Shown here: piece by piece, positions 11,885-30,770 of the stretch | How positions within the stretch are numbered: the first letter of the stretch is position 1 | Layout of the letters: every line of letters begins with the position of its first letter | Origin: Gammaproteobacteria bacterium | Lineage (GTDB): Bacteria; Pseudomonadota; Gammaproteobacteria; Ga0077536 | Length of the DNA stretch: 64,000 nt | Reading direction: 5' to 3' | Assembly: GCA_016209015.1 (NCBI GenBank) | Contig: JACQWY010000035.1 | Location: 1 to 64,000 of the forward strand | Notes under the pieces: model-generated | Database searches by the model: none | The model's input: the letters and a program-made list of their open reading frames with translations, nothing else | Told to the model about the DNA's origin: nothing | Made by a program: the position numbers and the translations under genes

Positions 11885-11886
11885 AG

Positions 11887-13638: not shown

Positions 13639-13694
13639 GGTCTCCAAAGTGATCAGCAGAACGCTAACTCTCGGTATTCAGTGCGGAGAATGTT

Positions 13695-14510
13695 ATGGAG
13701 CGCATTAAGAAGGCCTTGGACTTGGCTCGAAAGGAGCGGGACTCGAAGCCGGCGGAGGATCTGACAGCTAGTCCGGAGGACGGGCGCGCGAAGGAATCCT
13801 CAGATCTTAAGAACATTCAGTATTCTCAGACCCGGGTGCTGAAGCTAGACACCGAGAAATTGCGTAGCAATCGAGTGTTGGTGAACAATGAAGAACCGGA
13901 TGCCGCGACTGCATTTAAAATGCTCCGCACCCAGGTTCTTCAGCGCATGGTGGCTAAAGGATGGAACGCCCTCGCCATAACGAGCCCGGCGCCGGAGGAC
14001 GGCAAGACATTGGTTGCAGCCAATCTCGCGATCAGCCTCGCGCGGGAACTGCATCACACGGTATTGCTGGTTGACCTCGATTTAAGGAATCCGAGCATTC
14101 ACAAGTATTTCGGTATGCATCCGGAACGCGGGATCAGTGATTATCTGTTGGATGGTGCCGCAATCGGGGATGTCCTCGTCAATCCCGGTCTAGAGCGACT
14201 CGTAATCCTTCCTGGTCGCGAGCTAATTGAAAATTCTTCGGAGTTACTTGCCTCACCACAAATGGGACAACTCGTGCAGGAACTCAAGTCGCGCTATCCG
14301 AATCGCTTTGTGCTTTTTGATCTTCCGCCAATTTTGTCGGCCGATGATGCGCTCTCTTTTGCGCCATATATTGATGCCGTGCTACTTGTAATCCGAGAAA
14401 AGAAAACGACGCGATTTGAACTACAGCACGCCATGGAACTACTCAGCGCCGTACCTGTTCTCGGGACTGTTCTGAACGGCTCTGTCGAGCGAATATCATC
14501 GTATTACTGA
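13695..14510 (+). CDS. Exosortase-locus tyrosine autokinase (CpsD/CapB family)
   Basis: A 271-residue cytoplasmic BY-kinase. A deviant Walker A (SPAPEDGKTLVAANLA), the Walker A' VLLVDLDLRNP and the Walker B FVLFDLPP are all present in order. The C-terminus ends in SSYY, a very short tyrosine cluster for autophosphorylation, compared with the longer clusters of Wzc. The N-terminal helix MERIKKALDLARKER matches the XrtA-linked kinase family. It would cycle phosphorylation to control the co-polymerase encoded just upstream. The split into separate membrane and kinase genes is more often seen in Gram-positives but is standard in PEP-CTERM EPS loci. Confidence 0.92.
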   Translation: MERIKKALDLARKERDSKPAEDLTASPEDGRAKESSDLKNIQYSQTRVLKLDTEKLRSNRVLVNNEEPDAATAFKMLRTQVLQRMVAKGWNALAITSPAPEDGKTLVAANLAISLARELHHTVLLVDLDLRNPSIHKYFGMHPERGISDYLLDGAAIGDVLVNPGLERLVILPGRELIENSSELLASPQMGQLVQELKSRYPNRFVLFDLPPILSADDALSFAPYIDAVLLVIREKKTTRFELQHAMELLSAVPVLGTVLNGSVERISSYY

Positions 14511-14539
14511 CCCTTCGCATCGTAATTGGGCCGGTCTCA

Positions 14540-15418
14540 GTGTACGAAAAATACTTCGGGTTCCGGGAAAAACCGTTTTCACTAATTCCAGATCCAAGTT
14601 TCCTCTATTTAGGAAAAAAGCACAGTTTGGCGTTGACGATGCTCGAGTATGCGTTAGTCAACGAAGCGGCGATGGTCGTGGTTACTGGAGAGATCGGATC
14701 AGGAAAAACGACAATAGTTCGCCATATTTTGGGCAAGTACTCTAACGACGCGGTTGTTGGCTTGATCGCGAATACTCACAAAGCTTTCGGCGATCTAATG
14801 CAGTGGGTCTCTATGGCGTTCGGACTCGTACACGAGGGGAAAGACAAGGTCACGCTTTATCACAATTTTGTAAATTTTCTTATTGGCGAATATGCGCGTG
14901 GCAAACGAACCATACTTATAGTCGACGAAGCGCAAAATATGGATGTGGACACGCTTGAGGAGTTGCGAGTCCTTTCCAACATAAATGCCGACAAAAACCT
15001 GGTGTTGCAACTGGTGTTGGTTGGCCAGCCGGGACTGCGAGCCACTTTGCGAAAACCAGAACTTGAACAATTCGCTCAGCGCATTCTAGTGGACTACCAC
15101 CTCGACGCATTGGATGTACGCGAAACGAGAGCATATATCTTGCACAGACTCTTGGTTGCTGGCGGTCGCCCCGAGATCTTCTCGCGAGAGGCTGCGGACC
15201 TAATTCATGAATTAAGTGGCGGCATCCCGAGGCTAATAAATTCGCTCTGCGATCAATCGCTCGTATATGCATATGCGGACCAACGAGCAAAGGTTACTAC
15301 TCGCGTGGTTAAGGAACTGGTTGCGGACAAGAAATCGCGGAGTCTGTTTGGCGCTGGAAAGATTAACTACGTTGCCGTGGGCGAAACCGCGCCGGTCGAT
15401 TACCTCAAACCAAACTAA
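14540..15418 (+). CDS. Exosortase-associated AAA ATPase (ExeA/GspA-like)
   Basis: A 292-residue AAA ATPase starting at a GTG. It opens with the family hallmark YFGFREKPFSLIPDP, then Walker A GEIGSGKTT, Walker B ILIVDEAQNM and a sensor region LVGQPGLRATL, with SGGIPRLINSLCD near the C-terminus. The closest recognised group is the putative secretion ATPase found in PEP-CTERM/EPS loci, related to ExeA of type II secretion. It lacks the peptidoglycan-binding C-terminal domain of ExeA. It lies 29 bases after the kinase gene. Its exact role in export or surface assembly is unknown. Confidence 0.9.
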   Translation: MYEKYFGFREKPFSLIPDPSFLYLGKKHSLALTMLEYALVNEAAMVVVTGEIGSGKTTIVRHILGKYSNDAVVGLIANTHKAFGDLMQWVSMAFGLVHEGKDKVTLYHNFVNFLIGEYARGKRTILIVDEAQNMDVDTLEELRVLSNINADKNLVLQLVLVGQPGLRATLRKPELEQFAQRILVDYHLDALDVRETRAYILHRLLVAGGRPEIFSREAADLIHELSGGIPRLINSLCDQSLVYAYADQRAKVTTRVVKELVADKKSRSLFGAGKINYVAVGETAPVDYLKPN

Positions 15419-15503: not shown

Positions 15504-16613
15504 ATGAGCAGTTACCTCATATTAATCGTCGCGGGCGCCAGGCCTAATTTCATGAAGATTGCGCCGATCATCCGAGCACTTGAACGACATCGTGATGCCT
15601 TCGCGTGGCGTCTTGTCCATACTGGACAGCACTACGATAGGGAAATGAGCGACGTCTTTTTCGAGGAACTCGAGATTCCCAAGCCGCATTATCATCTCGA
15701 TGCGGGAGGAGGAACCCACGCGCAGCAAACTGCGAAAATTATGATAGGTTTTGAAGACGTCGTACAGAAAGAACGACCACAACTCGTGATGGTCGTCGGC
15801 GACGTTAATTCTACGCTGGCCTGCTCAATTGTCGCTAAGAAGCTTCAGATTCAAGTCGCTCACGTTGAGGCTGGGCTAAGAAGCGGAGATCTGATGATGC
15901 CGGAGGAAATCAATCGGATCGTCACGGACGCGATCTCAGATTATTTCTTCGTTACTGAGCCGAGTGGCGTTGAGAATCTCAGGCGGGAAGGCAAGCGGGA
16001 AGAGCAAATCTTTTTTGTTGGACACGTAATGATTGATAACCTTTACCATCAGGTGAAGAAGTTGCAGGAAATGGACGACTCTGCGTTCCCAACCGCCACA
16101 CTAAAGAGCAAACTCGGAAAGTATGGCGTTGTAACTCTCCATCGCCCCTCGAACGTCGATAACGCAGAGCGGCTAGGTGGTATCGTAGAGGCGCTTGCGC
16201 AAGTGGCAAACCATATTCCATTGATTTTTGCGGTCCATCCGCGGACCGCGCAGAACCTGGACAAATTTGGAATTTGCCTTCCGGATTCGATTATTCGCAC
16301 GAATCCGCTTCCCTATATGGAGTTTTTAAATCTATGGATGGATGCGCAGGTTATTCTTACTGACAGTGGAGGCATCCAGGAGGAGAGCACCGCTCTCGGC
16401 GTTCCCTGTGTGACGCTACGCGAGAACACAGAACGGCCGATCACGATCTCGGAAGGCTCAAATGTCTTAGTTGGCAGCGACCCAGAAAAGATTGTGGCAG
16501 CTGCGCTGAAGGTTCTTTCTCACCCGGGTCAAGCGAGAACCAAGCGGCCCGCGTTATGGGATGGGGCGGCCTCTGATCGCATTGTCGATGAACTGGCGAA
16601 ACTGATCGTCTAA
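15504..16613 (+). CDS. wecB: UDP-N-acetylglucosamine 2-epimerase (non-hydrolysing)
   Basis: A 369-residue GT-B-fold epimerase that converts UDP-GlcNAc to UDP-ManNAc. GARPNFMKIAPI at the N-terminus, HTGQHYDREMS, VVGDVNSTLA, HVEAGLRSGD, the VTLHRPSNVD segment and LTDSGGIQEESTALGVPC are all conserved family motifs. I start at 15504 because AAGG precedes it by about seven bases and the fold begins at SSYLILIVAG; an in-frame ATG also exists at 15483. The length matches WecB. It predicts ManNAc (or ManNAcA, though no dehydrogenase is here) in the polymer. Confidence 0.93.
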   Translation: MSSYLILIVAGARPNFMKIAPIIRALERHRDAFAWRLVHTGQHYDREMSDVFFEELEIPKPHYHLDAGGGTHAQQTAKIMIGFEDVVQKERPQLVMVVGDVNSTLACSIVAKKLQIQVAHVEAGLRSGDLMMPEEINRIVTDAISDYFFVTEPSGVENLRREGKREEQIFFVGHVMIDNLYHQVKKLQEMDDSAFPTATLKSKLGKYGVVTLHRPSNVDNAERLGGIVEALAQVANHIPLIFAVHPRTAQNLDKFGICLPDSIIRTNPLPYMEFLNLWMDAQVILTDSGGIQEESTALGVPCVTLRENTERPITISEGSNVLVGSDPEKIVAAALKVLSHPGQARTKRPALWDGAASDRIVDELAKLIV

Positions 16614-16826: not shown

Positions 16827-18386
16827 GTGGCTAAATTAGCTGACCAAGAAAGGCGATCCGATTTGCGGCGCATATTGGCGACGTCGATTTTTGGCATTTT
16901 GGGTCGCTCATCACGTCTCGCGATCAACGTCGGTCTCATAGGCTATGCGGTGGCGAAGCTGGATGCGCAGACGTGGGCCATCACGGCAATCGCGGCATCA
17001 CTTAGCAGCTACCTGGGCCTATTGCAGTTGGGGGCCTCGTCTGGCATAGGCCGTCTGCTCGGTGAAGCTGTTGCGACCCGGAGCCAAGACTCGTTTGTTG
17101 AGCGATATAGCGCGAGTTGGGTGGTGTGTGGCCTTGTTAGCGTCGCCGTCGTCAGTGTGGCGGTGTTGCTCGCGCGTCTCGGGTTCGGGCGCCTTGATAT
17201 ACCCGTGCCCTTACATGAGGACGCATATGCCGCGCTCGTTTTCACTGTAATTAGCGTCGTCCTCACGACTTGCAACCTAGTCAGTATCGGGACTCTCCAG
17301 GCTATTGGAAAACTTGAACTGTTTCTTGGCGCTGAATTTGGAGCGGCGATAGCCCGGGCACTCCTTACAGTGCTGGGATTCGAGCTGCTTCATCCAACTG
17401 CGGCGGTATATACGGGCGCATTGGCGGCGGCGAATTTGTTGCTGTTGCTCTGGTGCAATTGGGGAATGACAAGATCCCTCGGGCCTGAGCGCGCGCGCTT
17501 TCGATGGCCAAGCATTGCAGCCCTCAAAAAGGCGTTCCTTTTTAACTCTCTAGCGTTCGCGGATTCGATTATCTACGTGGGATTTTTGCAGTCGCCCGTT
17601 TTCCTTCTTCGCCCAGACTTGGTTCAAATTGGCGCCTATGGGCTATTCGTTCAGGTGAACAATGTCCTTCGCACGCTTATTGGTCCGACGTCCCAATCTC
17701 TTTCGGCGCTGTTAGTTTCCTACCGGGCTACCGGTCAGCATGAGCGGCTGGATCGTACATTCGCTGCGTCATCGAAGACGTTCTTTGCGATAGGGGGCGT
17801 CGTTAGCGCAGAGTTAGTGGTATTTGGACAGGAAATGCTCTCTTTATGGCTCCACAACGTGGAGTTGCTGAATTCTTTAGCCTCAGCGTGGCCCTATTTG
17901 GCCATGATGATCGGGATGGGGATTGCGGCGATTCCATCAGCAGTGTTCCTCGTGTCAGTCGGTCGGATCGAGTTCCCTGCGCTAATTGGAATTGTCATAT
18001 TGTTGATCTTCTTGACCGTTGCCCACCGAATTACCTCAGCAAGTGACGAGCCGGGCAGGTTTGTTGACACGGCCGTTGTATTGCTTATCGCGTACGGCTT
18101 ACATCAAGTGATCCGGATAATATTCGCTTGGAGCACCCTGTCGGTCGCTGAGCGAAAGCTTCCGTTCGCCGGACTTGCCGCCAGTTCGCTCTTTAGTCTA
18201 GTTGTTGCTGGTACAGCGGCTTTTCTTGGTAAGTCACTAGACCACACGTCAGCGGCGCAGTTGATTCTCGGGGTAAGTCTATTAGCAATCATATCAGTTG
18301 CGTGTTGGTGGAGCGTGATGCTTACGCCTGGCGAGCGAGCGATGATATTGAAGAAGCGCCCGGCGTCGGAATCTAAAGAGGTATGA
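16827..18386 (+). CDS. Wzx-type polysaccharide flippase
   Basis: A 519-residue integral membrane protein with about 12-14 hydrophobic helices in the MATE/MVF (oligosaccharidyl-lipid flippase) pattern. There are paired helices at the N-terminus with ILATSIFGILGRSSRLAINVGL, polar residues in early helices (GASSGIGRLLGEA) and a long hydrophobic C-terminus. It begins at a GTG and overlaps the next gene by four bases (ATGA). It would flip the lipid-linked repeat unit to the periplasm. Sequence divergence is normal for Wzx, so the call rests on topology and context as well as on family resemblance. Confidence 0.87.
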   Translation: MAKLADQERRSDLRRILATSIFGILGRSSRLAINVGLIGYAVAKLDAQTWAITAIAASLSSYLGLLQLGASSGIGRLLGEAVATRSQDSFVERYSASWVVCGLVSVAVVSVAVLLARLGFGRLDIPVPLHEDAYAALVFTVISVVLTTCNLVSIGTLQAIGKLELFLGAEFGAAIARALLTVLGFELLHPTAAVYTGALAAANLLLLLWCNWGMTRSLGPERARFRWPSIAALKKAFLFNSLAFADSIIYVGFLQSPVFLLRPDLVQIGAYGLFVQVNNVLRTLIGPTSQSLSALLVSYRATGQHERLDRTFAASSKTFFAIGGVVSAELVVFGQEMLSLWLHNVELLNSLASAWPYLAMMIGMGIAAIPSAVFLVSVGRIEFPALIGIVILLIFLTVAHRITSASDEPGRFVDTAVVLLIAYGLHQVIRIIFAWSTLSVAERKLPFAGLAASSLFSLVVAGTAAFLGKSLDHTSAAQLILGVSLLAIISVACWWSVMLTPGERAMILKKRPASESKEV

Positions 18387-19348
18387 GCATGAAGTGGGCA
18401 TATGCGAATTTCACCGATAGTTCGTGTAATTTCGGGAACTATGTCATTGACTACGCGACCCGACGCCTGCTGACTAACGTGCTGCCGCCCCCGGTACGAG
18501 AGTTCGATTCATTTCGAGAAGGCCTAGGGGAACAGCGGTACGACGCGGTAATAGTGCCTGGATGTACCATGCTGACCAGAGGCCAAAACCCTGGCCTGGA
18601 ATGTCTAAGTGAAAAGAACGGACCAGTATTTTGTCTCGCCGGATCGATTTGGACCCAAGCGCCGCGGCACGGTTTTCTTCTACGAAATAGAATCCTTGGC
18701 CGGCGTGTTAGCGCTCCCGATCTTTGCATTGCGAACATGATCACCGGCCCCGTTGGTGTTAGAGATCCCTTTACACTGAATACGCTGACCGAACACGGCA
18801 TCCCGGCTCTTTACACAGGTTGCCCTACGCTCTTCCTCGAACGTAATTCTCGACTCGAAGGCGATTACGTGCTTTTTTCTTTCGGCCGCCATGCAATGCG
18901 CGCTCAAGTGCGGGCGGGACGTCGTTTGGCCCGAACAGAACATGTCATAGGAATCGTCCACGAACCTTACGACGAGGCTCGGATTCGCGCGGCTGGCTGG
19001 GATTTGCCACTGATCAATTTTCGTGGGGATATAGAATTGTTCTTGTCGTATTTTCAATCTGCCGCACTGGTCGTGACTGGGCGCCTTCACGGAGCATTGC
19101 CCTCCATTGCGTATGGCCGGCGACTGGTGTATTTCGGGCAAAGGGACACCAGAACGACCCTTCTGGACGATCTGGGTGTCCCAATTGTTGATGTGAGAGA
19201 CATCGATGATTTGCGAACGCACGCGAGGGTCTATTCAGCGGACGTCCTTGTGACGCACTTCAAGAGGAACTGGGAGGAATTACTCCGCCGCGTCGAAAGT
19301 GTAGGAGTCGGTGACGAACATGTCGACCTACTTAGCGGCCGTCCTTGA
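18383..19348 (+). CDS. Polysaccharide pyruvyl transferase family protein
   Basis: A 321-residue protein of the PS_pyruv_trans family (GT-B-like). The recognisable segments are CNFGNYVIDYATRRLL near the N-terminus, a DAVIVPGC segment, VGVRDPFTLNTL, and the C-terminal VVTGRLHGALPSIAYGRRLVYF, equivalent to the RLHG/A block of CsaB and WcaK. It would add a pyruvate ketal from phosphoenolpyruvate to a sugar of the repeat unit, introducing negative charge. Some members of the family are glycosyltransferase-like, so the reaction is not certain. It is translationally coupled to the flippase gene. Confidence 0.85.
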   Translation: MSMKWAYANFTDSSCNFGNYVIDYATRRLLTNVLPPPVREFDSFREGLGEQRYDAVIVPGCTMLTRGQNPGLECLSEKNGPVFCLAGSIWTQAPRHGFLLRNRILGRRVSAPDLCIANMITGPVGVRDPFTLNTLTEHGIPALYTGCPTLFLERNSRLEGDYVLFSFGRHAMRAQVRAGRRLARTEHVIGIVHEPYDEARIRAAGWDLPLINFRGDIELFLSYFQSAALVVTGRLHGALPSIAYGRRLVYFGQRDTRTTLLDDLGVPIVDVRDIDDLRTHARVYSADVLVTHFKRNWEELLRRVESVGVGDEHVDLLSGRP

Positions 19349-19428: not shown

Positions 19429-20721
19429 ATGCGCAGCTTTCTAATTTGGTGTTGGGGCGGCATCTACCTCGCGTCAATTTTTCTTGTGCCGCCCACGCTA
19501 TTTTACCGGCCCGAATATTTTATGGCGCTTTTCACGGCCGCGCTGGCCGCTACGGTCGTGCAGTCGCGGGTAATAGGAGCCTTCAAGGTAGAGGCTGCCT
19601 TGATTATTTTTCTCGGCATCTTCGGCGCTATTGCAGTGTTTCAACAGTCTCTGGCAGGCAAGCCATTCGTTGCTGCTGATGCAATGATTATTCTCCGCTA
19701 CGGCTACTACGTGGCGGCGCTAATAATGGGCGGTGTTATCGCGGAAAAAGTGAGGCTTGGTAGCGTTCGAAGTTACGTCCTTCCGATGCTCGTGGCGTGC
19801 CTTGCCTTGAGTATTCTTCAGTATAAGAACGTGTTTGGTCTCAACAAAATTGTCGTGCCACTGTATACCGTGAAGGGCGATCTACTGATTCACGGGGATT
19901 ATTGGCGGCGGGTAGTGGGGACCTACGGCAACCCAAATTATTGGGGCTTACTTCTTGGCTTCGGATTTCTATTTGCAGTCCCGGGGTTTCTTTGGGGGCG
20001 GCGGTTGTGGGTGGTTATTTTGTTCCCCGCGGTGGCTTACTGTCTTCTGCTAACGGGATCGCGCGCAGCCATGGTGGCGACGGCGGTAGCGATGTCTGTC
20101 GGCGCTGCAATTGTATCCGGTGCTGCGCGAAGGAGTCCCAGAGCGCTGCCCATGCTTATCATTTTTGTGGGCTTCATTGCTCTTGTGGGGATGAAACTAA
20201 GTTTATTGTCGTCTGTGGGTTACGAAAATCCGGATAGGTTCACCAATGTTGAGAGTTTTTATACGCGAGTCAAATATTGGGAAGGAATACTGGACAACAT
20301 AATGAGGTCAAACGGGTTTCAGGTGCTTTTCGGGCGAGGACCGATGAAGGAGGTCGCGAAGCCGTACGGAGACAATATTCTAATTTTGTTGCTGCGAGAT
20401 TATGGCGCGATAAGTGTCGTTTTGTATTTGGCGCTCTTCACACGGATGTATTTTCGTTCAATTCAACAGCTCCGTCACCATGAAACGGGGCCGTTCAATC
20501 AGGACATCGCTGCGCTTTCAATGGTTACGCTGGCATACGGTATATTCGATCTTAGTGCGGATGCGTGGTTCAACGTGCGCGTTGCGGGTTTATTCCTGTT
20601 CTTCTATGGATTCATCGTTGTGAATGCCATGGGCGTATCGGCTAACGGTCGCACCGCAGTTCCAGACTACCAACCTCAAGCGAATGCCCCAAGATATGCG
20701 AATCTCTGTAGTAATACTTAA
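19429..20721 (+). CDS. O-antigen ligase/Wzy-type polymerase
   Basis: A 430-residue membrane protein with about ten or more helices and a large periplasmic loop containing YGNPNYWGLLLGF, followed by LLTGSRAAMVATAVAM. That arrangement, including the GSRAA motif, is typical of the Wzy_C/O-antigen ligase superfamily. A good ribosome-binding site (AAAGGGG) precedes the ATG. In this locus it most likely polymerises the flipped repeat unit in the periplasm. It overlaps the following glycosyltransferase gene by 38 bases. Confidence 0.87.
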   Translation: MRSFLIWCWGGIYLASIFLVPPTLFYRPEYFMALFTAALAATVVQSRVIGAFKVEAALIIFLGIFGAIAVFQQSLAGKPFVAADAMIILRYGYYVAALIMGGVIAEKVRLGSVRSYVLPMLVACLALSILQYKNVFGLNKIVVPLYTVKGDLLIHGDYWRRVVGTYGNPNYWGLLLGFGFLFAVPGFLWGRRLWVVILFPAVAYCLLLTGSRAAMVATAVAMSVGAAIVSGAARRSPRALPMLIIFVGFIALVGMKLSLLSSVGYENPDRFTNVESFYTRVKYWEGILDNIMRSNGFQVLFGRGPMKEVAKPYGDNILILLLRDYGAISVVLYLALFTRMYFRSIQQLRHHETGPFNQDIAALSMVTLAYGIFDLSADAWFNVRVAGLFLFFYGFIVVNAMGVSANGRTAVPDYQPQANAPRYANLCSNT

Positions 20722-21679
20722 CTGGAACGGCGGCGCCGCTAATTGCATTGAAGCAGTCCAGTCTGCTCTTGAGCAGGACTATTTTGACAAGGAGGTCATA
20801 TTTGTTGATAACGGCTCGACGGATAACTCTGGTTCTGAAACTGCTAGAGCATTCCCGGATGTCAATTTCATTTTTTTGGAAGCAAATACAGGGGTCTCTC
20901 ATGGTCGCAATGTCGGAGCCGCAGCGGCGTCAGGCTCTCTAGTCTTTTTTTTGGAGAACGATGGGGCGTGGCAGTCTACAAGCGTGATCTCCGATGCGGT
21001 ACGACTTTTCGAAAGCCTGCCGGACCTTGGGGCAATATATACAAAAGTTGTAGGTTACGATTCCGGGAAGGTGGATGCTCCAATCGATTTCCACGGTGGC
21101 ATTAGCGATGATGGAATCTACTACGCCTCGTCGTTTCGGGGTGGGGCGTCGGTAATTAAACGCGAGACATATCTGAGCTTGGGGGGCTTTCCGGACGATT
21201 ATTTCAGGCAAGGTGAAGAGCGATTTCTATCGTTGCGGATGTATGAGGCTGGGTTTCGGGTCGCGTACTGGCCGCGCCACACGATGCGTCACAAGGGGTC
21301 GGATTACACAGGGAAGCGGGACACGGTGCAGCGATTTTCGTGTGAGAATGAGCTCAAGACGGTCGTTCGTCTTTATCCAAATCCCATCTTCATCGGTGTG
21401 CTTCTGTACAAGCTCTTCGCCTGGGGAATACGCTTCGCGCGAGCTGGGCGGATCGCGATATTTCGTAAGATACTGAGCTGTATTCCGGCTTGGCTTGCTG
21501 AGCGCCGGACTATGACGCAAGTCTCGTTTGATACAATTCGTCTAGTTGAAGGGCTTCAATTTTCCGGTGCTGGAACGTGGAGGTTACAGGACAAGACTCT
21601 GTCCGAGATGAAATCGCTCACGGGCAAAATGAACCCATTGGTCACGAGACTCACATTCAAGATGAGGAAGTGGTTATGA
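20684..21679 (+). CDS. Glycosyltransferase family 2 (GT-A)
   Basis: A 331-residue GT-A enzyme. ISVVILNWNGG, VIFVDNGSTDNS and the metal-binding LENDGAW (DXD position) are conserved, followed by GGASVIKRETYLSLGGFPDDYF, the usual acceptor-side block. A rhamnosyltransferase-like WbbL subgroup is plausible. I use the ATG at 20684; another in-frame ATG lies at 20696, and the ORF-track start at 20624 would add residues with no family match. It begins inside the polymerase gene and ends in an ATGA overlap with the next gene. The sugar transferred is unknown. Confidence 0.88.
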   Translation: MPQDMRISVVILNWNGGAANCIEAVQSALEQDYFDKEVIFVDNGSTDNSGSETARAFPDVNFIFLEANTGVSHGRNVGAAAASGSLVFFLENDGAWQSTSVISDAVRLFESLPDLGAIYTKVVGYDSGKVDAPIDFHGGISDDGIYYASSFRGGASVIKRETYLSLGGFPDDYFRQGEERFLSLRMYEAGFRVAYWPRHTMRHKGSDYTGKRDTVQRFSCENELKTVVRLYPNPIFIGVLLYKLFAWGIRFARAGRIAIFRKILSCIPAWLAERRTMTQVSFDTIRLVEGLQFSGAGTWRLQDKTLSEMKSLTGKMNPLVTRLTFKMRKWL

Positions 21680-22536
21680 AATCCCCCTGCTCAAATTTGG
21701 GTCGACTGCGATTGGCGGCGATGCTTCTGTTTTGTGGGTGCTTTCTCGCAGCGGAGGGCAGCTCCGCAGCGGGTTCGACTACGTTCGAAATATATGACGG
21801 CACCAGCTATAGAAACAAGCCTAACTTGGTCAGGTACGGGATCCAGCCCGTCTATATACTCACCGAAGGTAAGTTCTGGGACAAGAAGACAGATCAGTCG
21901 CTGCCCGATGCGAAGAGAGTGAAGAAGGCCGCTGCGGACGCGGCATCGAAAGGCCTATTAACCATCATAGATATAGAACGCTGGAAAATGTGGGCCGGCG
22001 TCGGAGTCGAAGAAAACGTCCCGAAATACGTCGGCGTGCTTAAGAAATTCAAGGAGTCTGCTCCAAACCTGCGCGTCGGTTATTACGCCACGGCGCCTCA
22101 GGGAAGTTACGGAACTGCACAAGTTCCAAGTTCCAATAGCGGATACCGTCGGTGGATGCAACTCAACGATTCATTGCGTCCAATTGCAAATCTTGCTGAC
22201 GCGGTGTTCCCGTCGATCTACACATACTCCACCAATCGAGAAGCCTGGAAACGTTTTGCGTTGGCGCAAGTAAATGAGGCTCGAAGGTACGGCAAGCCCG
22301 TATACGCGTTCATCTGGCCTCAATACGTAGATAACGCGCCTGATAAAAGCATTGCCCTTAAGTGGCTCCCGGAAGATTTTTGGAGGTTTCAGCTGGATAC
22401 GTTAAGCGGCGTCGCGGATGGCGTTGTAATTTGGGGGGGATGGGATTTCAAAGGATGGCGAGCAATCGAGTGGGATGACAGTGCCCCTTGGTGGGGCGCA
22501 ACGAAAGACTTTATTGCTCGCATTCCACAAAAATAG
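21676..22536 (+). CDS. Secreted TIM-barrel glycosidase, GH56 (hyaluronidase)-like
   Basis: A 286-residue exported protein: a signal peptide ends near AAEGSSAAG, followed by a probable TIM barrel. LTIIDIERWKMW (Asp99/Glu101) resembles the catalytic D-x-E dyad of GH56 hyaluronidases, and DAVFPSIYTYS resembles their PSIY block. KPVYAFIWPQYVDN and GVVIWGGWDFKGW fit later strands. The similarity is by motif only, so a different GH family with the same fold is possible. The ATG at 21676 overlaps the upstream stop (ATGA), placing it firmly in the EPS operon. A periplasmic or surface hydrolase that trims the polymer or sets its length is inferred. Confidence 0.68.
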   Translation: MKSPCSNLGRLRLAAMLLFCGCFLAAEGSSAAGSTTFEIYDGTSYRNKPNLVRYGIQPVYILTEGKFWDKKTDQSLPDAKRVKKAAADAASKGLLTIIDIERWKMWAGVGVEENVPKYVGVLKKFKESAPNLRVGYYATAPQGSYGTAQVPSSNSGYRRWMQLNDSLRPIANLADAVFPSIYTYSTNREAWKRFALAQVNEARRYGKPVYAFIWPQYVDNAPDKSIALKWLPEDFWRFQLDTLSGVADGVVIWGGWDFKGWRAIEWDDSAPWWGATKDFIARIPQK

Positions 22537-22662
22537 CGCGGATTGTCGATTCGGACCGCCCAATGCAACCGGATAGATACGTTTTGATGGTTCTTCGGAC
22601 TACACGCGCAAAGTCCGCGTGAAGCTGGCTGCCCGAGAGCGTTCACAGCTAGGGGGATGGGA

Positions 22663-23232
22663 ATGGTGTCGAGCACGAGCCCTTCGTTAGCCGACTATCG
22701 AGTGGCGGGATACTGCCCAGGGGCGGGGAGACTGAAACGCGCGGCCTGGTACGTGCTAAACGCAATATTTTTCGATTCTTGGCTGTGCCCATTCTATCCC
22801 CTAAAGAATCTTATTCTCCGATTGTTCGGTGCTCGGATTGGTATTGGGGTGATCATCAAGCCTCGCGTGAATATTAAACACCCATGGCGTCTAAGTGTGG
22901 GTGATCACGTTTGGATTGGCGAAGGCGTCTGGATTGATAATTTGGTCCAGGTCACCATAGGTTCGAATGTTTGCATATCGCAGGGAGCAATGCTGTTGAC
23001 AGGTAACCACGATTATAAGGACCCGCATTTCGGGCTAATCACTGGAGAAATCACAATTGGCGACGGAGTTTGGGTTGGCGCGCAAAGCATCGTCGGACCA
23101 TCGGTTCGCTGTTACGAAAATGCTGTAATAACGGCGGGAAGTATCTTGACCAGTGAGGCGGAGCAAAATGCCATTTACAGGGGCAACCCGGCGGTTCGGA
23201 TTCGTGAGCGGATATTGCGCAGTCATCCATGA
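22663..23232 (+). CDS. WcaF-family O-acetyltransferase
   Basis: A 189-residue left-handed beta-helix acetyltransferase of the WcaF type. KRAAWYVLNAIFFDSW and PLKNLILRLFGARIG form the N-terminal lead, followed by hexapeptide repeats (HVWIGEGVWIDNLVQVTIGSNVCISQGAMLL), the catalytic-histidine region TGNHDYKDPHF, and YRGNPAVRIRER at the end. Two ATGs lie six bases apart. The first (22657) directly abuts AGGGGG, while the second (22663) has proper spacing from it, so I start at 22663. It is the second acetyltransferase of the locus. ATGA overlap with the next gene. Confidence 0.9.
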   Translation: MVSSTSPSLADYRVAGYCPGAGRLKRAAWYVLNAIFFDSWLCPFYPLKNLILRLFGARIGIGVIIKPRVNIKHPWRLSVGDHVWIGEGVWIDNLVQVTIGSNVCISQGAMLLTGNHDYKDPHFGLITGEITIGDGVWVGAQSIVGPSVRCYENAVITAGSILTSEAEQNAIYRGNPAVRIRERILRSHP

Positions 23233-24449
23233 ACAAGTTGGTTTTTGTAAATCGATATTTTTTTCCAGACAGCTCTGCCACGAGTCAACTCCTAAGTGAC
23301 CTCGCATTCGAATTGAGTGGCGCGGGCTGTACGGTGTATGTCGTGACTAGTAGGCAGCTTTATCACGATCCAAATGCTGACTTGACGCCTTCGGAATCGA
23401 TCAACGGTGTGAATGTCGCTCGGGTATGGTCCAGTCACTATGGCAGGAAGATATTGATCCTGCGTGCGCTTGATTACTTTTCCTTTTACATAAGTGCGTG
23501 CGTTGCGCTCCTGTCGATGCTAGGAAAGGGCGATGTCGTAATTGCGAAGACTGACCCGCCGTTGCTTTCATTGGCAGTTTGGCCGGTTGCGGTGTTGAGG
23601 GGAGCGCGTGTTGTTAACTGGCTTCAAGATGTTTATCCAGACGTGGCCCAGGCACTAAACGTCGCAGGCGTAAAATATTTGGCTCCATTGCTGAAGTGGA
23701 TGCGGAATCTGACTCTAAAGCACGCAACCGTAAATGTGGTGATCGGCGAGAACATGGCCAGCCTGCTCGAAGGCGAAGGTGTTCAACCGCGCAAGATTCA
23801 GGTGATTCATAACTGGATTGATGGCGGCAAGATTGTTCCACAAAAGGAAGTTGGCAGGGGCTTGCGCGAAGAGTGGAATCTGGACAGTCGCTTCGTCGTG
23901 GGGTATTCCGGAAACATGGGGCGCGTCCATGATTTCGCGACGATCATTAGTGCAATAAAGACCCTTGCGTCGAAAGTTTCCGATATAAGTTTCCTTTTTG
24001 TCGGGGCGGGAGCTCGCGAAGCATTTATTAAAGAAGAATTACGGGGCATTCCGAATGTCTTATTCAAGCCGCATCAGCCCTTTGAAAAACTCTCGGAATC
24101 ATTGGGAGTTCCTGATGTACACCTAGTTTCCTTATTGCCAGAGATGGAGGGTTTGATTGTGCCGAGCAAATTCTACGGTATAGCTGCTGCAGGGCGTCCT
24201 GTGATTTTTGTTGGAAGCAGAACTGGGGAAATTGCAAAGATAATTGGCCGTTCAAAATGCGGTTATGCGGTCCCGAGCGGTGATTCAGCGAGCCTGGCGG
24301 ATTGTATCGAAAGCATCTATTGGAATCGTGAAGATGGACGACGCAGAGGGGGCGAGGCGAGAAAACTGTTTGATAGTGAGTTCAATCGAGACATCGCAAT
24401 GCGGAAATGGAAAGAAGTGCTGGGCATCGCGCATGTGGCGAGCTTATGA
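23229..24449 (+). CDS. Glycosyltransferase family 4 (WcaI/WbuB-like)
   Basis: A 406-residue GT-B enzyme. The N-terminus (NRYFFPDSSATSQLLSDLAFEL) and VVIAKTDPPLLSL with WLQDVYPDVA are characteristic of the WcaI/WbuB group, often fucosyl- or FucNAc-transferases. The C-terminal domain shows VGYSGNMGRVHDF, FLFVGAGAREAF and VPSKFYGIAAAGRPVIFVG. The link to fucose is only suggestive, but it agrees with gmd and fcl downstream. Translationally coupled on both sides (ATGA with wcaF-like and with the exosortase). Confidence 0.88.
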   Translation: MNKLVFVNRYFFPDSSATSQLLSDLAFELSGAGCTVYVVTSRQLYHDPNADLTPSESINGVNVARVWSSHYGRKILILRALDYFSFYISACVALLSMLGKGDVVIAKTDPPLLSLAVWPVAVLRGARVVNWLQDVYPDVAQALNVAGVKYLAPLLKWMRNLTLKHATVNVVIGENMASLLEGEGVQPRKIQVIHNWIDGGKIVPQKEVGRGLREEWNLDSRFVVGYSGNMGRVHDFATIISAIKTLASKVSDISFLFVGAGAREAFIKEELRGIPNVLFKPHQPFEKLSESLGVPDVHLVSLLPEMEGLIVPSKFYGIAAAGRPVIFVGSRTGEIAKIIGRSKCGYAVPSGDSASLADCIESIYWNREDGRRRGGEARKLFDSEFNRDIAMRKWKEVLGIAHVASL

Positions 24450-26011
24450 ATTCAATTAAGTGGACGGCGAAACCAAGTTACTGGCTGGGACTCCTTATCC
24501 CGACTGCGATAGCCGCTTTCCTGTGCAGGAATGGTATTGAGCACATGTCTCGGGCTTGGTTCCACCAGGAAGAATACAGCCATGCCGTCTTAATTCCATT
24601 CATCGCTGGTTATTTGGTTTGGCAGAGACGCGCGGATTTGTCCCGAGCTTCCTTTACAGGGTCATGGCTCGGAGTTGTTATGGTCGCGATGGGCGTTCTT
24701 ATATTTATTGGCGGAGAACTGGGAACGCTGTTTGTTTTGATCGAATACGCATTTCTTATTCTTCTTTATGGAATCACGCTGAGCGTAGTGGGGGGGCGGG
24801 CTTTCAAGTTGCTAGCTGTACCGCTACTTATTCTCGCATTCATGATCCCTCTGCCGAATTTTCTGTATAACAACCTTTCCTCGCAGCTCCAACTGTGGTC
24901 ATCTCAAATCGGTGTGGCGGTCGTCCGTCTTGCAGGAATTAGTGTTTTCCTTGAAGGCAATGTCATCGATCTGGGCAGTTACAAACTGCAGGTAGCTGAG
25001 GCCTGTAATGGACTCCGGTATCTGTTCCCGTTGACGACATTGGGATTTATCGTTGCCTATTTTTATCACGCTGCATTTTGGAAAAGGGCAATCATCTTTT
25101 TATCGACGATCCCCATCACTGTCCTCATGAATAGTTTTCGGATCGGAATAATTGCGGTAATGGTGAATTTTTGGGGCCAATCTATGGCGGAAGGCTTCCT
25201 TCACGATTTTGAAGGATGGGCCGTGTTCATGGCTTGTTTCGGTGTGTTGTTCATTGAAATGTGGATTTTGCTTCGCGTGACCAATGATAAACGCCCCCTT
25301 CGGGAGGTTTTTGGACTTGAGGTTCCGGAGAGGCTGCCTGAGGGCGCGGAAATTCGTGTTCGTTCCTTTCCTCGCTCAGGAATAATTGCAGCCGTTGTAA
25401 TCGCTCTTGGGCTTCTCCCGGCCCTTTCAATTCCAGAGCGCGCCGAAATAATTCCATCGCGGTCCACATTTGATGAGTTTCCACTTCAAACAGCGGGCTG
25501 GGTAGGACGGCGCGATGCTCTTGAGAAAGTCTACATCGATACTCTAAAATTCACCGATTACATTCTGGTGAACTACCATCGCAACGCAGATTCGACGTTA
25601 ACGTTCTACGTCGCCTACTACGAGTCACAGCGTAAGGGGCAATCCGCGCACTCGCCGCGGTCTTGCCTGCCCGGCGGCGGCTGGCGGATCGAGGCCCTGA
25701 CGCAGGAAACGATCGAGGGCGCCACAGTGGCCGGCAAGCCGCTTCGTGTCAACCGCGTCCTGATCAGCTACGGGGATCAAAAGCAACTAGTCTATTACTG
25801 GTTCCAGCAGCGCGGGCGCGTCATCACTAACGAATACCTGGTGAAATGGTATATGTTTGTGGATGCGATCCGCAAGAACCGCACGGACGGCGCGCTGGTC
25901 AGGCTGACGATGCCCCTCGCGCCGGGTGAGGACCCAGCGAAAGCGGATATTGCCCTCTCGCAATTTTCGCGGGATGTTGCCCCGGAACTGGCCAAGTACA
26001 TTCCCGAATAG
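24446..26011 (+). CDS. Exosortase-EpsI fusion, likely VPLPA-specific (XrtD-like)
   Basis: A 521-residue membrane protein. Residues 1-285 are the multi-helix exosortase domain with all three catalytic residues: Cys187 in AEACNGLRYLFPL, Arg232 in NSFRIGIIAVM and His253 in FLHDFEGW. After a linker and another helix (IIAAVVIALGLLPAL), residues 330-521 form an EpsI domain with the SPRSCLPGGGW motif. Exosortases cleave PEP-CTERM-like tails. The fusion to EpsI and the VPVPG-tailed protein at 1.4-2.0 kb point to the VPLPA-specific class, which I recall as XrtD. The start at 24446 overlaps the GT4 stop. The first three quarters of the gene are AT-richer than the last quarter. Confidence 0.92.
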   Translation: MNSIKWTAKPSYWLGLLIPTAIAAFLCRNGIEHMSRAWFHQEEYSHAVLIPFIAGYLVWQRRADLSRASFTGSWLGVVMVAMGVLIFIGGELGTLFVLIEYAFLILLYGITLSVVGGRAFKLLAVPLLILAFMIPLPNFLYNNLSSQLQLWSSQIGVAVVRLAGISVFLEGNVIDLGSYKLQVAEACNGLRYLFPLTTLGFIVAYFYHAAFWKRAIIFLSTIPITVLMNSFRIGIIAVMVNFWGQSMAEGFLHDFEGWAVFMACFGVLFIEMWILLRVTNDKRPLREVFGLEVPERLPEGAEIRVRSFPRSGIIAAVVIALGLLPALSIPERAEIIPSRSTFDEFPLQTAGWVGRRDALEKVYIDTLKFTDYILVNYHRNADSTLTFYVAYYESQRKGQSAHSPRSCLPGGGWRIEALTQETIEGATVAGKPLRVNRVLISYGDQKQLVYYWFQQRGRVITNEYLVKWYMFVDAIRKNRTDGALVRLTMPLAPGEDPAKADIALSQFSRDVAPELAKYIPE

Positions 26012-26025
26012 AAAGCGATCCCTGG

Positions 26026-27711
26026 ATGCTCGCAACTTTCTCGTTCATCGTGGCGATGTTCATCACTATGGTGCTTATTCCACCATTGATGAGGTCCGCG
26101 CGTAAGCTCTCAATAGTAGACATACCCGACGAGCGCAAGGTGCATACGGGGGCTGTTCCGCGCATCGGCGGCGTCGCCATGGTCGCTGGGGCGGTCACGC
26201 CGGTGCTGCTTTTTCAATCCCACCCGCCGGTCATAATTTCCTATCTGCTGGGCATCGGGATCATTCTCTTTTTCGGGGTCTGGGACGATCGTTCGGGCCT
26301 CGATTATCGGCTCAAGTTCCTGGGGCAGTTCCTGGCCGTGTGTGTCGTCGTCTTTTACGGCGACATCCATATCCGATTCGTGCCGTTCCACAGTCTTGAA
26401 TCTATTCCCTACGGCGTCTCGGTACCGCTGACGATATTTGCGCTGCTCGGTATCACTAACGCCATCAATCTCGCTGACGGGCTCGATGGTCTCGCGGGTG
26501 GCACGACGTTCATGAGCATTGCGGGATTGGCGTTGCTCGCCTTTCTCGCGGCCGATCAGCCGCTCGTGTCGCTTTCATGCGCTGTCCTCGGCAGCGTCGT
26601 GGGCTTCCTGCGTTACAACACCTATCCTGCTCAGGTCTTCATGGGCGATGCGGGCAGCCAGTTCCTCGGCTTCTCGGCAGGTGTATTCGTGGTCGTGCTG
26701 ACCCAGCAGTCGAATCCGGCGCTGAGCCCCGCGATGCCGCTGCTCCTGCTGGGGCTGCCGATCATCGATACGTTCCTCGTCATGGGGCAGCGCATCTACG
26801 AAGGGCACTCGCCCTTCAAGCCGGATCGCAACCACACGCACCACAAGCTGCTCGCGCTCGGCTTCGATCACTACGAGGCCGTGCTGATCATCTATCTCGT
26901 GCAGGCTTGCCTGGTCACCGGCGCGTTTTTCTTCAGGTACTCCGCGGATTGGGTGAACCTGTTGCTCTTTGTTGGCTTCACCGCCTTCGTCATGATCGGA
27001 TTCCGCGTGGCTGGAGTAAGCGGCTGGCGCGCCCACCAGTACTCTTTGGAAGAGCGCCGCACGCCGTTGACGACGTTCATTTCTCATCTTCGCCAGAGCG
27101 GTGCGCTGCGGCGTTGGCCGATGCGCTTCATCGGGGTCACGGTGCCGATCTATCTCGTCTATGCCATGCTTTCGGCCGGCACGATTTCGGGCGATGCGGC
27201 CGTGACGCTGGGGGTGCTCGCTGTGGGCTCGTTACTCGCGCTCCTGCTCCAGCCCCAAGCCGGCATTACACTTCCGGAACGTCTGCTCATCTGCGTGACG
27301 ATAGTTGCGAGTGTCTACTACTGGGTCGCTTCCGCGACTGAACCCGTTGCCCAGCACCAGATCGAGAACCTCTACTTCGTACTGCTGACCATCGCGCTCA
27401 TTGCAGCTTATCGTTTCCGCCAGCCACGTGCGTTCGATGTCACTCCGATGGATTTCCTGGTCGTGTTCGCCGCCATCGTGGTTCCGAACCTGCTCGGTGG
27501 CAACGCCATCGAAAGCCATCTGGGGGAAGTGGCCGCCAAGTCGGTCATCCTCTATTACGCGAGCGAAATCCTGATCTCGTATGGCGAGAGCCGGCCTAAG
27601 CTCGTTCGAGGCGTGGTCGTGCTGGTGCTGGCAGTGTTTGCGGCGAAGTATGGATGGTTGCATACCGTTAGCGGTGGAGCGGATGCTGCGGCCAGTAGCG
27701 CGCCGCCCTGA
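26026..27711 (+). CDS. WecA/MraY-family glycosyl-1-phosphate transferase, extended
   Basis: A 561-residue polytopic membrane enzyme of the UDP-GlcNAc:undecaprenyl-phosphate transferase family. It begins the lipid-linked repeat unit by moving a HexNAc-1-phosphate to the carrier. Conserved pieces are DERKVHTGAVPRIGG, GVWDDRSGLDYRLKF, NAINLADGLDGLAGG, VFMGDAGSQFLGF and DRNHTHHKLL. Typical WecA ends near 350-365 residues. Here about 200 extra residues form further membrane helices of unknown use. It follows the exosortase by 14 bases and has intermediate to high GC content. Confidence 0.92.
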   Translation: MLATFSFIVAMFITMVLIPPLMRSARKLSIVDIPDERKVHTGAVPRIGGVAMVAGAVTPVLLFQSHPPVIISYLLGIGIILFFGVWDDRSGLDYRLKFLGQFLAVCVVVFYGDIHIRFVPFHSLESIPYGVSVPLTIFALLGITNAINLADGLDGLAGGTTFMSIAGLALLAFLAADQPLVSLSCAVLGSVVGFLRYNTYPAQVFMGDAGSQFLGFSAGVFVVVLTQQSNPALSPAMPLLLLGLPIIDTFLVMGQRIYEGHSPFKPDRNHTHHKLLALGFDHYEAVLIIYLVQACLVTGAFFFRYSADWVNLLLFVGFTAFVMIGFRVAGVSGWRAHQYSLEERRTPLTTFISHLRQSGALRRWPMRFIGVTVPIYLVYAMLSAGTISGDAAVTLGVLAVGSLLALLLQPQAGITLPERLLICVTIVASVYYWVASATEPVAQHQIENLYFVLLTIALIAAYRFRQPRAFDVTPMDFLVVFAAIVVPNLLGGNAIESHLGEVAAKSVILYYASEILISYGESRPKLVRGVVVLVLAVFAAKYGWLHTVSGGADAAASSAPP

Positions 27712-27823
27712 GCGCCGATTCCGTGGGGAAACGTGCACGGAAAAGATTGGAATCTGCGTGATATAGTCGGACGGAGCCAGTTCCCGGCTGAAACGAAATC
27801 TGTTTAATCGTATTGGATTGACG

Positions 27824-28915
27824 ATGACCAAGAAGAAAGCCCTCATCACCGGCGTCACCGGCCAAGACGGCGCCTATCTCTCCGAGCTCCTCCTCAAAAA
27901 AGGCTACGAGGTCCACGGCATCAAGCGCCGCGCCTCGAGCTTCAATACCGGCCGCATCGATCACCTCTACCAGGATCCGCACGCCAAGGATCGCCATTTC
28001 GTCCTCCACTACGGCGATCTCACGGATTCAACGAACCTGATCCGCATCATCCAGCAGGTGCAGCCGGACGAAATCTACAACCTCGCGGCGCAGAGCCATG
28101 TCGCGGTGTCGTTCGAAACACCGGAGTACACGGCGAACGCGGACGCGGTCGGCACACTGCGGCTGCTCGAGGCGATCCGCATCCTCGGCCTCGAGAAGAA
28201 GACCCGCTTCTATCAGGCCTCGACGAGCGAGATGTTCGGCAAGGTGCAGGAAATCCCGCAGAAGGAGACGACGCCCTTCTATCCGCGCAGCCCCTACGGC
28301 GCGGCCAAGGTCTACGCCTACTGGATCTGCGTGAACTACCGCGAGGCCTACGGGATGTTCTGTTGCAACGGCATCCTCTTCAATCACGAATCGCCGATCC
28401 GCGGCGAGACGTTCGTGACGCGGAAGATCACCCGCGCGGTCGCACGCATCGGGCTCGGGCTGCAGGAGAAGCTCTTCCTCGGCAACATCGATGCGCTGCG
28501 CGATTGGGGTCATGCCCGCGATTACGTGCAGGCGATGTGGCTCATGCTCCAGCAGGACGAGCCGGACGATTTCGTGGTCGCGACCGGCAAGCAGGTCTCG
28601 GTACGCTGGTTCGTGGAGCGGGCGTTCAAGGAAATAGGTGTCGATATCGAGTGGCGTGGCACCGGGGTCGACGAGAAGGGCATCGACAAGGCCAGCGGCG
28701 TGGTGCGTGTCGAGATCGATCCGCGCTATTTCCGGCCGACCGAGGTCGAGACGCTGCTCGGCGATCCGGGCAAGGCGAAAGCGAAGCTCGGCTGGGAGGC
28801 GACGACGCCGCTCGAGGAGATGATTCGGGACATGGTCCGCGAGGACAAGCGCGACGCGGAGAAGGACGAGTTCTGCCGCCGTGAGGGCTTTCGCGTCTTC
28901 GATTACTTCGAATGA
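27824..28915 (+). CDS. gmd: GDP-mannose 4,6-dehydratase
   Basis: A 363-residue NADP-dependent short-chain dehydrogenase/reductase that makes GDP-4-keto-6-deoxymannose. [17 protein letters not shown] is the nucleotide-binding glycine-rich motif, [16 protein letters not shown] follows, and the catalytic SXnYXXXK appears as ASTSEMFGK and [10 protein letters not shown]; the [16 protein letters not shown] block is family-specific. I use ATG 27824 rather than the TTG six bases earlier. Its stop overlaps the fcl start (ATGA). It takes GDP-mannose from ManC. GC-rich, like the chromosome backbone. Confidence 0.96.
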
Positions 28916-29847
28916 AAGCGCTCGATCCGAAATCGCGGGTCCTCGTGGCCGGCGCGAAGGGCATGGTGGGCTCGGCGATCGTCCGGGCGCTGGAGAAGAG
29001 CGGGCACACGGCCGTTCTCGCGCCGTCGCGCCGCGAACTGGATCTCATGAACCCGGCGGCGGTCGAGGCGTATTTCGCGGAGCACCGGCCGGAATTCGTG
29101 TTCGTCGCGGCGGCGAAGGTCGGCGGGATCCATGCGAACAACAGCTACCCCGCGGATTTCATCTACGACAATCTCGTCATCGAAGCGAATCTCATCCACG
29201 CGGCGTTCCGGCACAAAACCGAGAAGCTGCTCTTCCTCGGTAGCACCTGCATCTATCCGAAGCTCGCGCCGCAGCCGCTGAAGGAGGAATACCTGCTGAC
29301 CGGGCCGCTCGAACCGACGAACGAGTGGTATGCAGTGGCGAAGATCGCCGGAATCAAGCTCTGCCAGGCGTTCCACAAGCAACACGGCTGCCGCTTCATC
29401 TCGGGGATGCCGACGAACCTCTACGGCGAGAACGACAATTTCGACCTCGAGACCTCGCACGTCATGCCCGCGCTCATCCGCAAATTCCACGCCGCGAAGA
29501 CGAGCGGGGCGGAGGAGGTCGTGGTGTGGGGCAGCGGCAGGCCGCTGCGCGAGTTCCTGCACGTCGACGATTGCGCGGAGGCCTGTCTGTTTCTGATGCG
29601 GAACTACGAAGACCCGGAAATCTGCAATATCGGGGTCGGCGTGGATCTCTCGATCTTGGAGCTCGCGCAGACGATCAAGCGCATCGTGGGCTTCGAGGGC
29701 CGGCTCGTGTTCGACAGTACGAAGCCGGATGGCACGCTGCGGAAGCTCGTCGATACGACGAAGATCAATGCGCTCGGGTGGAAGGCCAGGATCCCGTTGG
29801 AAGAGGGGATTCGGGAGACTTACGCCTGGTATTGCGCGCAGCGTTGA
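28912..29847 (+). CDS. fcl: GDP-L-fucose synthase
   Basis: A 311-residue bifunctional epimerase/reductase that converts GDP-4-keto-6-deoxymannose to GDP-L-fucose. [16 protein letters not shown] is the NADP-binding motif, [17 protein letters not shown] and [15 protein letters not shown] carry family residues, [15 protein letters not shown] has the YXXXK catalytic pair, and [14 protein letters not shown] follows. Full length. It completes the ManC-Gmd-Fcl route, so L-fucose is a predicted component of the polymer. It ends the run of sugar genes before a repeat-rich gap. Confidence 0.96.
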
Positions 29848-29878: not shown

Positions 29879-30100
29879 CTTCGACGCCGGCGGCCGGAAG
29901 CTCAGTGCCCGTCGCCCTCGCGCAGGCGAGGGCACAGTCGGTGACCTTCGGCGGGTGCAGTGAGCCTCGGGTGACGTGCCGAGGACGGTCGCTGCGGCCA
30001 AGCCGTGGCGCCGGCCCCGGGGCTCGACGAAATCTCCGAGGTTGAACGACTGGGCCCTCGCCTACGCGAGGGCGACGCGGTGGGGCGGTCGATGCTTCGG
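29879..30100. repeat. Direct repeat copy 1 (with paired palindromes)
   Basis: Begins CTTCGACGCCGGCGGCCGGA and includes a forward palindrome near 29910-29946 and an inverted one near 30049-30076. It matches bases 30217-30438 at an offset of 338 with few differences, for example CAAG versus CGAG and TTGAACG versus TTCAACG. The copies look like a recent duplication of a BIME-like block. Confidence 0.8.
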
Positions 30101-30216
30101 ATTCGGATCCGCGACGCAGTGGGGTGGTCGATGCTTCGGATTCGCGACGCGCGACGCGACGCGGTGCGGTGGCCGATGCTTCGGATCCGGATCCGCGACA
30201 CGTGGGGTGGCCGATG

Positions 30217-30438: not shown

Positions 30439-30770
30439 CTTCGGATCCGCGACGCGGTGGGGTGGCCGATGCTTCGGATTCGAATGCGCGGCGCGGGTGG
30501 GACGATCAATACTTCGAAGGCACGACGTGGTGGTTCGGCCGATGTTTCGGATTCGGATGCGCGACGCGGTGGGGTCGCGGATGCTTCGGATCCGGATCCG
30601 CGATGCGCCGGCCTTCGGGCGCGTTCGCGTCGAGCGCATCGTCGGCGCGATGAGGCCCGCAGCGAGGGGCCCCGACGGCCCCCGGTCGCCTGCGAATCCT
30701 GTTGCAGTTTTTTCACAGCGGGCTGTGTAGAATCCGAGGTCCCAACTGCCGGAAACAAAACGGGTTTCAA

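Follow-up and report, generated by a model that had tools for sequence, protein, structure and literature searches.

Why would a bacterial exopolysaccharide (EPS) gene cluster contain a relative of the hyaluronidases of animals and venoms? This question is raised by a gene in a 64,000-nucleotide stretch of contig JACQWY010000035.1 from a gammaproteobacterium (assembly GCA_016209015.1), which is referred to here as the window. The gene runs on the forward strand from an ATG at 21676 to a stop codon ending at 22536 and has a product of 286 amino acids. An earlier note, made from the DNA alone, had described this product as a secreted glycosidase resembling glycoside hydrolase family 56 (GH56), encoded within an EPS operon. 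The protein is almost certainly a relative of GH56, and close homologues of it recur in EPS clusters of five other genomes. In our view it is likely to be an exported GH56-type hydrolase, probably a retaining N-acetylhexosaminidase, whose task is to trim the EPS of its own cluster or to release it.

Relationship to the GH56 hyaluronidases

The window protein matches a single Pfam family, Glyco_hydro_56 (PF01630, E 2e-4). NCBIfam and PHROGs contain no model that matches it, and phmmer with this one sequence finds no matches in the PDB; the GH56 structures are reached by profiles only. A profile of the window protein and three homologues that are 33-36% identical (A1) was searched against all PDB chains. 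It finds the hyaluronidases of bee venom (1fcq, E 1e-6) and wasp venom (2atm, 8e-6) and PH-20 (9e-5), the next match has an E-value of 1.1, and GH56 hyaluronidases are thus the only chains reached at meaningful E-values. With a ten-sequence profile the bee enzyme is found at 2e-13, the family ranges from 2e-13 to 1e-6 and HYAL1 appears too. This larger profile includes a Burkholderia homologue (L006) that is itself nearer to GH56, so the four-sequence search is the cleaner test. The homologues L019 (24.8 bits), L027 (23.7 bits) and L006 (31.1 bits) pass the PF01630 cut-off.

Mutation of five residues is described as abolishing or reducing activity in GH56, these are (HYAL1/bee) E131/113, D129/111, Y202/184, Y247/227 and W321/301 (PMC13080975). 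Counted along the alignments to 1fcq, all five are kept: bee D111, E113, Y184, Y227 and W301 correspond to D99, E101, Y137, Y182 and W253 of the window protein. The segment V-I-D111-F-E113 pairs in exact register with IIDIE, Y184 in WGYY with Y137 in VGYY, the tyrosine of LPSVY (Y227) with Y182 in FPSIY, and the tryptophan of FIIW (W301) with W253 in VVIW. D99, E101, Y182 and W253 are invariant between the window protein and the three homologues of the A1 profile. E101 and Y182 do not vary in any row that covers them, and no row of the EPS-linked group lacks either acidic residue of the D-x-E pair. W253 is gapped solely in the L027 row of alignment A4; in alignment A2, where the same protein is named L007, it is a tryptophan. 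The earlier note had singled out the segments IIDIERW and PSIY, both of which are found in the translation, and had read the first as a GH56-type D-x-E dyad. Because PF01630 is the sole Pfam match and the four residues are invariant, these motifs are not a chance resemblance, and the other three catalytic residues are present as well.

An AlphaFold2 model was built from the six rows of A4 (the window protein and sequences from related loci) and has a predicted local distance difference test score (pLDDT) of 80.3 and a predicted template modelling score (pTM) of 0.78. A prediction from the single sequence reached a pLDDT of 38 and was not used. The model has seven core strands (residues 38-41, 60-62, 95-99, 133-137, 176-178, 209-213 and 249-252), and its predicted fold is a (beta/alpha)7-type barrel, as is given for GH56 (PMC12254123). 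In a Foldseek search of the PDB the six best matches to the model all belong to GH56 (E 1.4e-9 to 1.4e-7), followed by a galactanase (2e-5). The D-x-E pair ends the strand at 95-99, in register with D111-x-E113 of the bee venom enzyme. The comparison with hyaluronidases that the earlier note had proposed thus places the protein, as modelled, with GH56; neither a fold other than a TIM barrel nor a misplaced D-x-E pair, the two outcomes that the note had named as refuting its reading, was obtained.

Several points weigh against this assignment and the activity that it implies. The window protein scores 20.7 bits on PF01630, below the cut-off of 23.2. The TM-scores to GH56 structures are modest (0.52-0.56), and the thin alignment behind the model leaves its loops and the geometry of the cleft unsure. 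The first half of the barrel lies outside the significant profile alignments, and here the register of the D-x-E pair comes from a weak, collinear local match. About 29 residues that follow the D-x-E pair in the wasp enzyme are absent, as estimated from the distance between the two segments of 2atm that align. D99 is replaced by asparagine in L020 and L025, which are divergent or phage rows, and Y137 by phenylalanine in L001. There is precedent in EPS systems for hydrolase-like domains with a binding role. The window protein might accordingly be a weakly active or inactive carbohydrate-binding or chaperone-like export factor, which guides the polymer without cutting it, and the loops unlike those of hyaluronidases and the asparagine at D99 in two relatives would fit such a role. 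We regard it as unlikely, given that the window protein has all five catalytic residues and every EPS-linked row has the D and the E.

The protein resembles the GH56 hyaluronidases (1fcq, 2atm, PH-20 9jub and HYAL1 2pe4) in its predicted seven-strand barrel and in the equivalent placement of the D-x-E pair, two tyrosines and a tryptophan. It differs from them in being bacterial and encoded in an EPS cluster, and in its length: the mature part has about 250 residues, against 320-420 in the structures. Animal and venom hyaluronidases have conserved disulfide bonds, whereas the window protein contains no cysteine after the signal region.

Homologues in EPS clusters and in phages

The EPS cluster in the window is complete, of the Wzx/Wzy type and equipped with an XrtD exosortase; it spans about 3.3 to 33.2 kb and bears out the operon setting that had been described. 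The stop codon of the upstream GT2 (glycosyltransferase family 2) gene, TGA at 21677-21679, overlaps the ATG of the GH56-like gene at 21676-21678 as ATGA, as had been noted.

The same setting is found elsewhere. All five full-length close homologues, each from another genome (L001, L016, L017, L018 and L019), are encoded within EPS clusters, and in several of these genomes the gene is coupled to or overlaps EPS genes. The association extends to further lineages. A Wzy-like gene lies immediately upstream of the GH56-like gene in L016, L018 and L019; in the window one GT2 gene separates the two, and in L017 the GH56-like gene is on the opposite strand. Because PF04932 has just four matches in a 5.7-Mb genome, such repeated proximity is, as a rough inference, very unlikely to have arisen by chance. 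Relatives of the window EPS genes are found by blastp at all five loci and at none of three loci with divergent relatives (Burkholderia L006, L020 and the apparent prophage L022), whose GH56-like genes lie outside EPS clusters. The GT4 (glycosyltransferase family 4) gene at 5841 has relatives in four of the five, and its hexapeptide acyltransferase partner in two (L018 and L019). This GT4 might make the linkage that is cut by the GH56-like enzyme.

The gene is rare. Counting the window's own genome, it occurs in three of 58 relatives, in two of 399 genomes sampled from the phylum and in four of 274 genomes of the class, one of which has a divergent relative only; it is present in one of 289 genomes of the class of G142, the genome that contains L017. 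The only match in a tblastn search of plasmids is a divergent Burkholderia gene. This gene, on the Burkholderia arboris plasmid NZ_CP101526.1 (L006:14599-15564), encodes an exported-looking GH56-like protein whose PF01630 score is over the cut-off.

The window cluster is similar to the XrtD/XrtA (PEP-CTERM) EPS clusters, having an exosortase, Wzz, a tyrosine kinase, an ATPase and PrsT. It is unlike the usual members in containing the GH56-like gene, which is a rare accessory: XrtD is found above its cut-off in 31 of the 274 class genomes, the window's own included, and three of these (G000, G544 and G619) have the gene. The XrtD gene of G619 is about 150 kb from the GH56-like gene (L018), and the 20 kb read around L017 showed no exosortase. 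A dedicated partnership with XrtD was tested and rejected, as most XrtD genomes lack the gene and it can occur in an EPS cluster with no XrtD nearby. Since most XrtD genomes lack the gene and the XrtD of G619 is so distant, the enzyme belongs as an accessory to the polymer and not to the exosortase. These two loci also bear on whether the protein is a transglycosylase or ligase, in which retaining GH56 chemistry would move the polymer to another acceptor (a lipid, a protein or a second glycan). Under some conditions GH56 hyaluronidases are said to catalyse transglycosylation (PMC11669647), and a Wzy/ligase-like protein and an exosortase are encoded nearby in the window, L001 and L019; with the exosortase distant in L018 and not seen in L017, we hold such a role to be quite improbable.

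GH56-like proteins are also encoded by four IMG/VR contigs (L025, L026, L027 and L028), with 35-43% identity. Where the start is visible, their sequences have no evident signal peptide. In L025 the gene order is a protein with a GDSL lipase/acylhydrolase domain, the GH56-like gene, head-closure protein Hc1, and then tail completion and tape measure proteins; in L027 the GH56-like gene lies near genes for a portal protein and a terminase-like protein. Genome G544, which has an EPS-cluster copy, has in addition a divergent GH56-like gene (L022:9407-10132) that on inspection adjoins a portal-like gene and is apparently a prophage gene. A tblastn search of the phage collection gave no matches. An 11-row tree closes a single inner branch, which joins two phage rows (92/87), and transfer between phages and bacteria is not inferable from it. 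The sequences and their surroundings suggest that the phage proteins are candidate depolymerases or lysins. A WcaF-like O-acetyltransferase gene adjoins the GH56-like gene in the window and L018 clusters, and an esterase next to a glycosidase, as in L025, would fit an O-acetylated polymer, which is no more than suggestive. The phage lyase HylP (polysaccharide lyase family 16, PL16) and other virion depolymerases target bacterial surface polysaccharide; the products of the phage genes described here would share this target, and differ from HylP in being GH56-like.

The occurrence of the family both in EPS clusters and among phage virion genes points to a bacterial surface polysaccharide as the substrate, and not hyaluronan. 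It also bears on the idea of a nutritional or defensive enzyme directed against a foreign glycan (hyaluronan, chondroitin or the EPS of a competitor), for which the EPS location would be incidental. Animal GH56 members degrade hyaluronan and the window protein is apparently exported, which would suit this idea; the EPS location shared by five other genomes, in several of which the gene is coupled to or overlaps EPS genes, the lack of apparent uptake genes beside the gene and the virion setting of the phage versions leave it a very small chance of being right.

A bacterial GH56 member in polysaccharide assembly had been called unusual, and no described bacterial or phage GH56 enzyme was found in a literature search, which did not reach subscription papers or the CAZy tables. 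A 2024 review lists polysaccharide lyase families, GH16, GH84 and GH88 as the microbial hyaluronan-degrading enzymes, and GH56 as mammalian and venom enzymes only (PMC11669647). The recurrence of close homologues in the EPS clusters of five other genomes, together with the phage versions, is new. The chances seem to us about even that a distinct GH56-related bacterial lineage recurs in the EPS clusters of unrelated bacteria, and that phages use versions of it as virion depolymerases against the same kind of polymer.

Proposed role in EPS processing

The window protein begins with MKSPCSNLGRLRLAAMLLFCGCFLAAEGSSAAGS, which resembles a Sec signal: its n-region is basic, and its hydrophobic core reaches a Kyte-Doolittle value of 2.46 at residues 13-26. 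With its continuous reading frame, this agrees with the description of the gene as encoding a secreted protein. The N-termini of the homologues differ in type: on inspection L017 is Tat-like (SRREFGF...), L018 is possibly a lipoprotein and L019 has a Sec signal. All four signals point to action outside the cytoplasm.

The enzymes encoded predict a polymer that contains N-acetylhexosamine (HexNAc), possibly fucose or mannose, and O-acetyl and pyruvate groups. HexNAc would be supplied in the window cluster, as wecB and a WecA-like transferase are encoded. The GH56 mechanism, in which the N-acetyl group of the substrate attacks C1 to give an oxazolinium and the configuration is retained (PMC13080975, PMC11315327), requires a HexNAc at the -1 site, and the presence of wecB and the WecA-like transferase makes such a residue plausible. 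Taken alone, cleavage of a HexNAc bond appears moderately probable from this mechanism and these two genes.

We propose that the exported enzyme would act in the periplasm or outside the cell on the EPS of its own Wzx/Wzy cluster. The reaction would be the hydrolysis of a HexNAc glycosidic bond by substrate-assisted retaining catalysis, with the substrate N-acetyl group attacking C1. E101 would be the acid/base that protonates the leaving group, D99 would stabilise the oxazolinium intermediate, Y137 would orient the water that completes retention, and Y182 and W253 would help to position the substrate. Endo-cleavage could determine how long the chains are, liberate polymer trapped in the periplasm or detach matrix polymer from the cell. 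The analysis itself shows the sequence family, the predicted fold, the catalytic residues and the cluster setting with its recurrence; that the protein is exported and active, is specific for HexNAc, cuts in endo mode, and where and to what end it acts, is what we infer.

The hydrolase domain of PelA and PslG of Pseudomonas aeruginosa belong to glycosidase families other than GH56. They are similar to the window protein in that a glycosidase gene lies inside an EPS operon, with the export of the window protein judged from its sequence and the cluster polymer its presumed substrate; the polymers differ and the comparison is by role only. Secreted low-molecular-weight Pel is a product of the hydrolase activity of PelA, which also reduces adherent biomass (PMC9894940); when PslG activity is lost, the localisation and function of Psl change (PMC9075953). 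The reason why EPS clusters carry a hydrolase has been called elusive (PMC9075953), and the locus would, if our proposal is correct, offer a direct genetic test of it. The chemistry of animal hyaluronidases would then have a bacterial counterpart for processing self-made HexNAc exopolysaccharides, and GH56 would gain a bacterial, non-hyaluronan class of substrate. Such a bacterial group would be a place to find new enzymes, which might open up biofilm matrices that contain HexNAc, and phage and host genes would be linked through action on one polymer.

The EPS cluster around the gene

The features of the window and of the related loci are collected in Table 1. The window cluster also encodes an outer-membrane-barrel-like protein, listed between the Wza-type exporter and Wzz.

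Table 1. Features of the GH56-like gene, its EPS cluster and related loci; positions are those of the window unless a locus is named
Feature	Position	Strand	Remarks
GH56-like glycosidase, predicted secreted, 286 aa	21676..22536	+	catalytic positions D99, E101, Y137, Y182, W253
Predicted Sec signal peptide, about 30-35 aa	21676..21780	+	inspection, hydropathy, model pLDDT <50 solely at residues 1-34
D99-I-E101 catalytic pair	21970..21978	+	GAT ATA GAA
ManC, mannose-1-P guanylyltransferase/isomerase	3354..4826	+	TIGR01479, 672 bits
GT4 and hexapeptide acyltransferase pair	5841..7579	+	
Wza-type polysaccharide export protein	9825..10607	+	TIGR03027, E 4e-35
Wzz-type chain-length protein, tyrosine autokinase, XrtA-type ATPase	11881..15418	+	TIGR03007, TIGR03018, TIGR03015
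WecB, UDP-GlcNAc 2-epimerase (UDP-ManNAc supply)	15507..16613	+	TIGR00236, 335 bits
Wzx-like flippase	16827..18386	+	PF01554 MatE, E 5e-5, weak
Polysaccharide pyruvyl transferase	18383..19348	+	PF04230, E 3e-12
Wzy-type polymerase / O-antigen ligase-like membrane protein	19429..20721	+	PF04932, E 2e-5, below Pfam cut-off
GT2 glycosyltransferase	20696..21679	+	PF00535, E 6e-18; ATGA overlap with GH56-like gene
WcaF-family O-acetyltransferase	22657..23232	+	NF007797, 220.6 bits, cut-off 192 passed
GT4 glycosyltransferase (WcaI-like)	23229..24449	+	
Exosortase XrtD (VPLPA-CTERM) fused to EpsI domain	24407..26011	+	TIGR04152, 577.9 bits
WecA-like polyprenyl-phosphate sugar-1-P transferase	26026..27711	+	PF00953, E 9e-38
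Gmd and GDP-fucose synthase (Fcl)	27818..29847	+	TIGR01472, 606 bits; NF047922, 499 bits against cut-off 500
PrsT TPR lipoprotein of exosortase systems	30702..33167	+	TIGR02917, 327 bits
L001, Desulfobacteraceae metagenome-assembled genome			Wzy-like (inspection), exosortase, PrsT nearby
L016, genome G035			Wzy-like and flippase (inspection), glycosyltransferases nearby
L017, genome G142			Wzy (PF04932, E 3e-12), pyruvyl transferase, Gmd, Wza-/Wzc-like, UDP-sugar dehydrogenase-like
L018, genome G619			Wzy, Gmd, Fcl, WcaF-like nearby
L019, genome G544			Wzy, exosortase, Wzz, kinase, ATPase nearby
Phage GH56-like genes	L025:2277-3011, L026:932-1660, L027:2143-3042, L028:1-288		

Two further secreted proteins are encoded in this part of the window. 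The protein at 1391-2305 on the reverse strand has VPVPGAAVLLGSGLLGLAGVKRRRS at its C-terminus and is a likely substrate of XrtD (VPLPA-CTERM). The protein at 8085-9374 on the forward strand heads the EPS cluster; it is a repeat protein, apparently a right-handed beta-helix with no NCBIfam match, and is possibly a second polysaccharide-acting enzyme. The intergenic DNA at about 29950-30650 and 33350-33500 is repetitive and contains repeated peptide-like strings in several frames, for example VVPAEVCRPGRSLSSRQKS.
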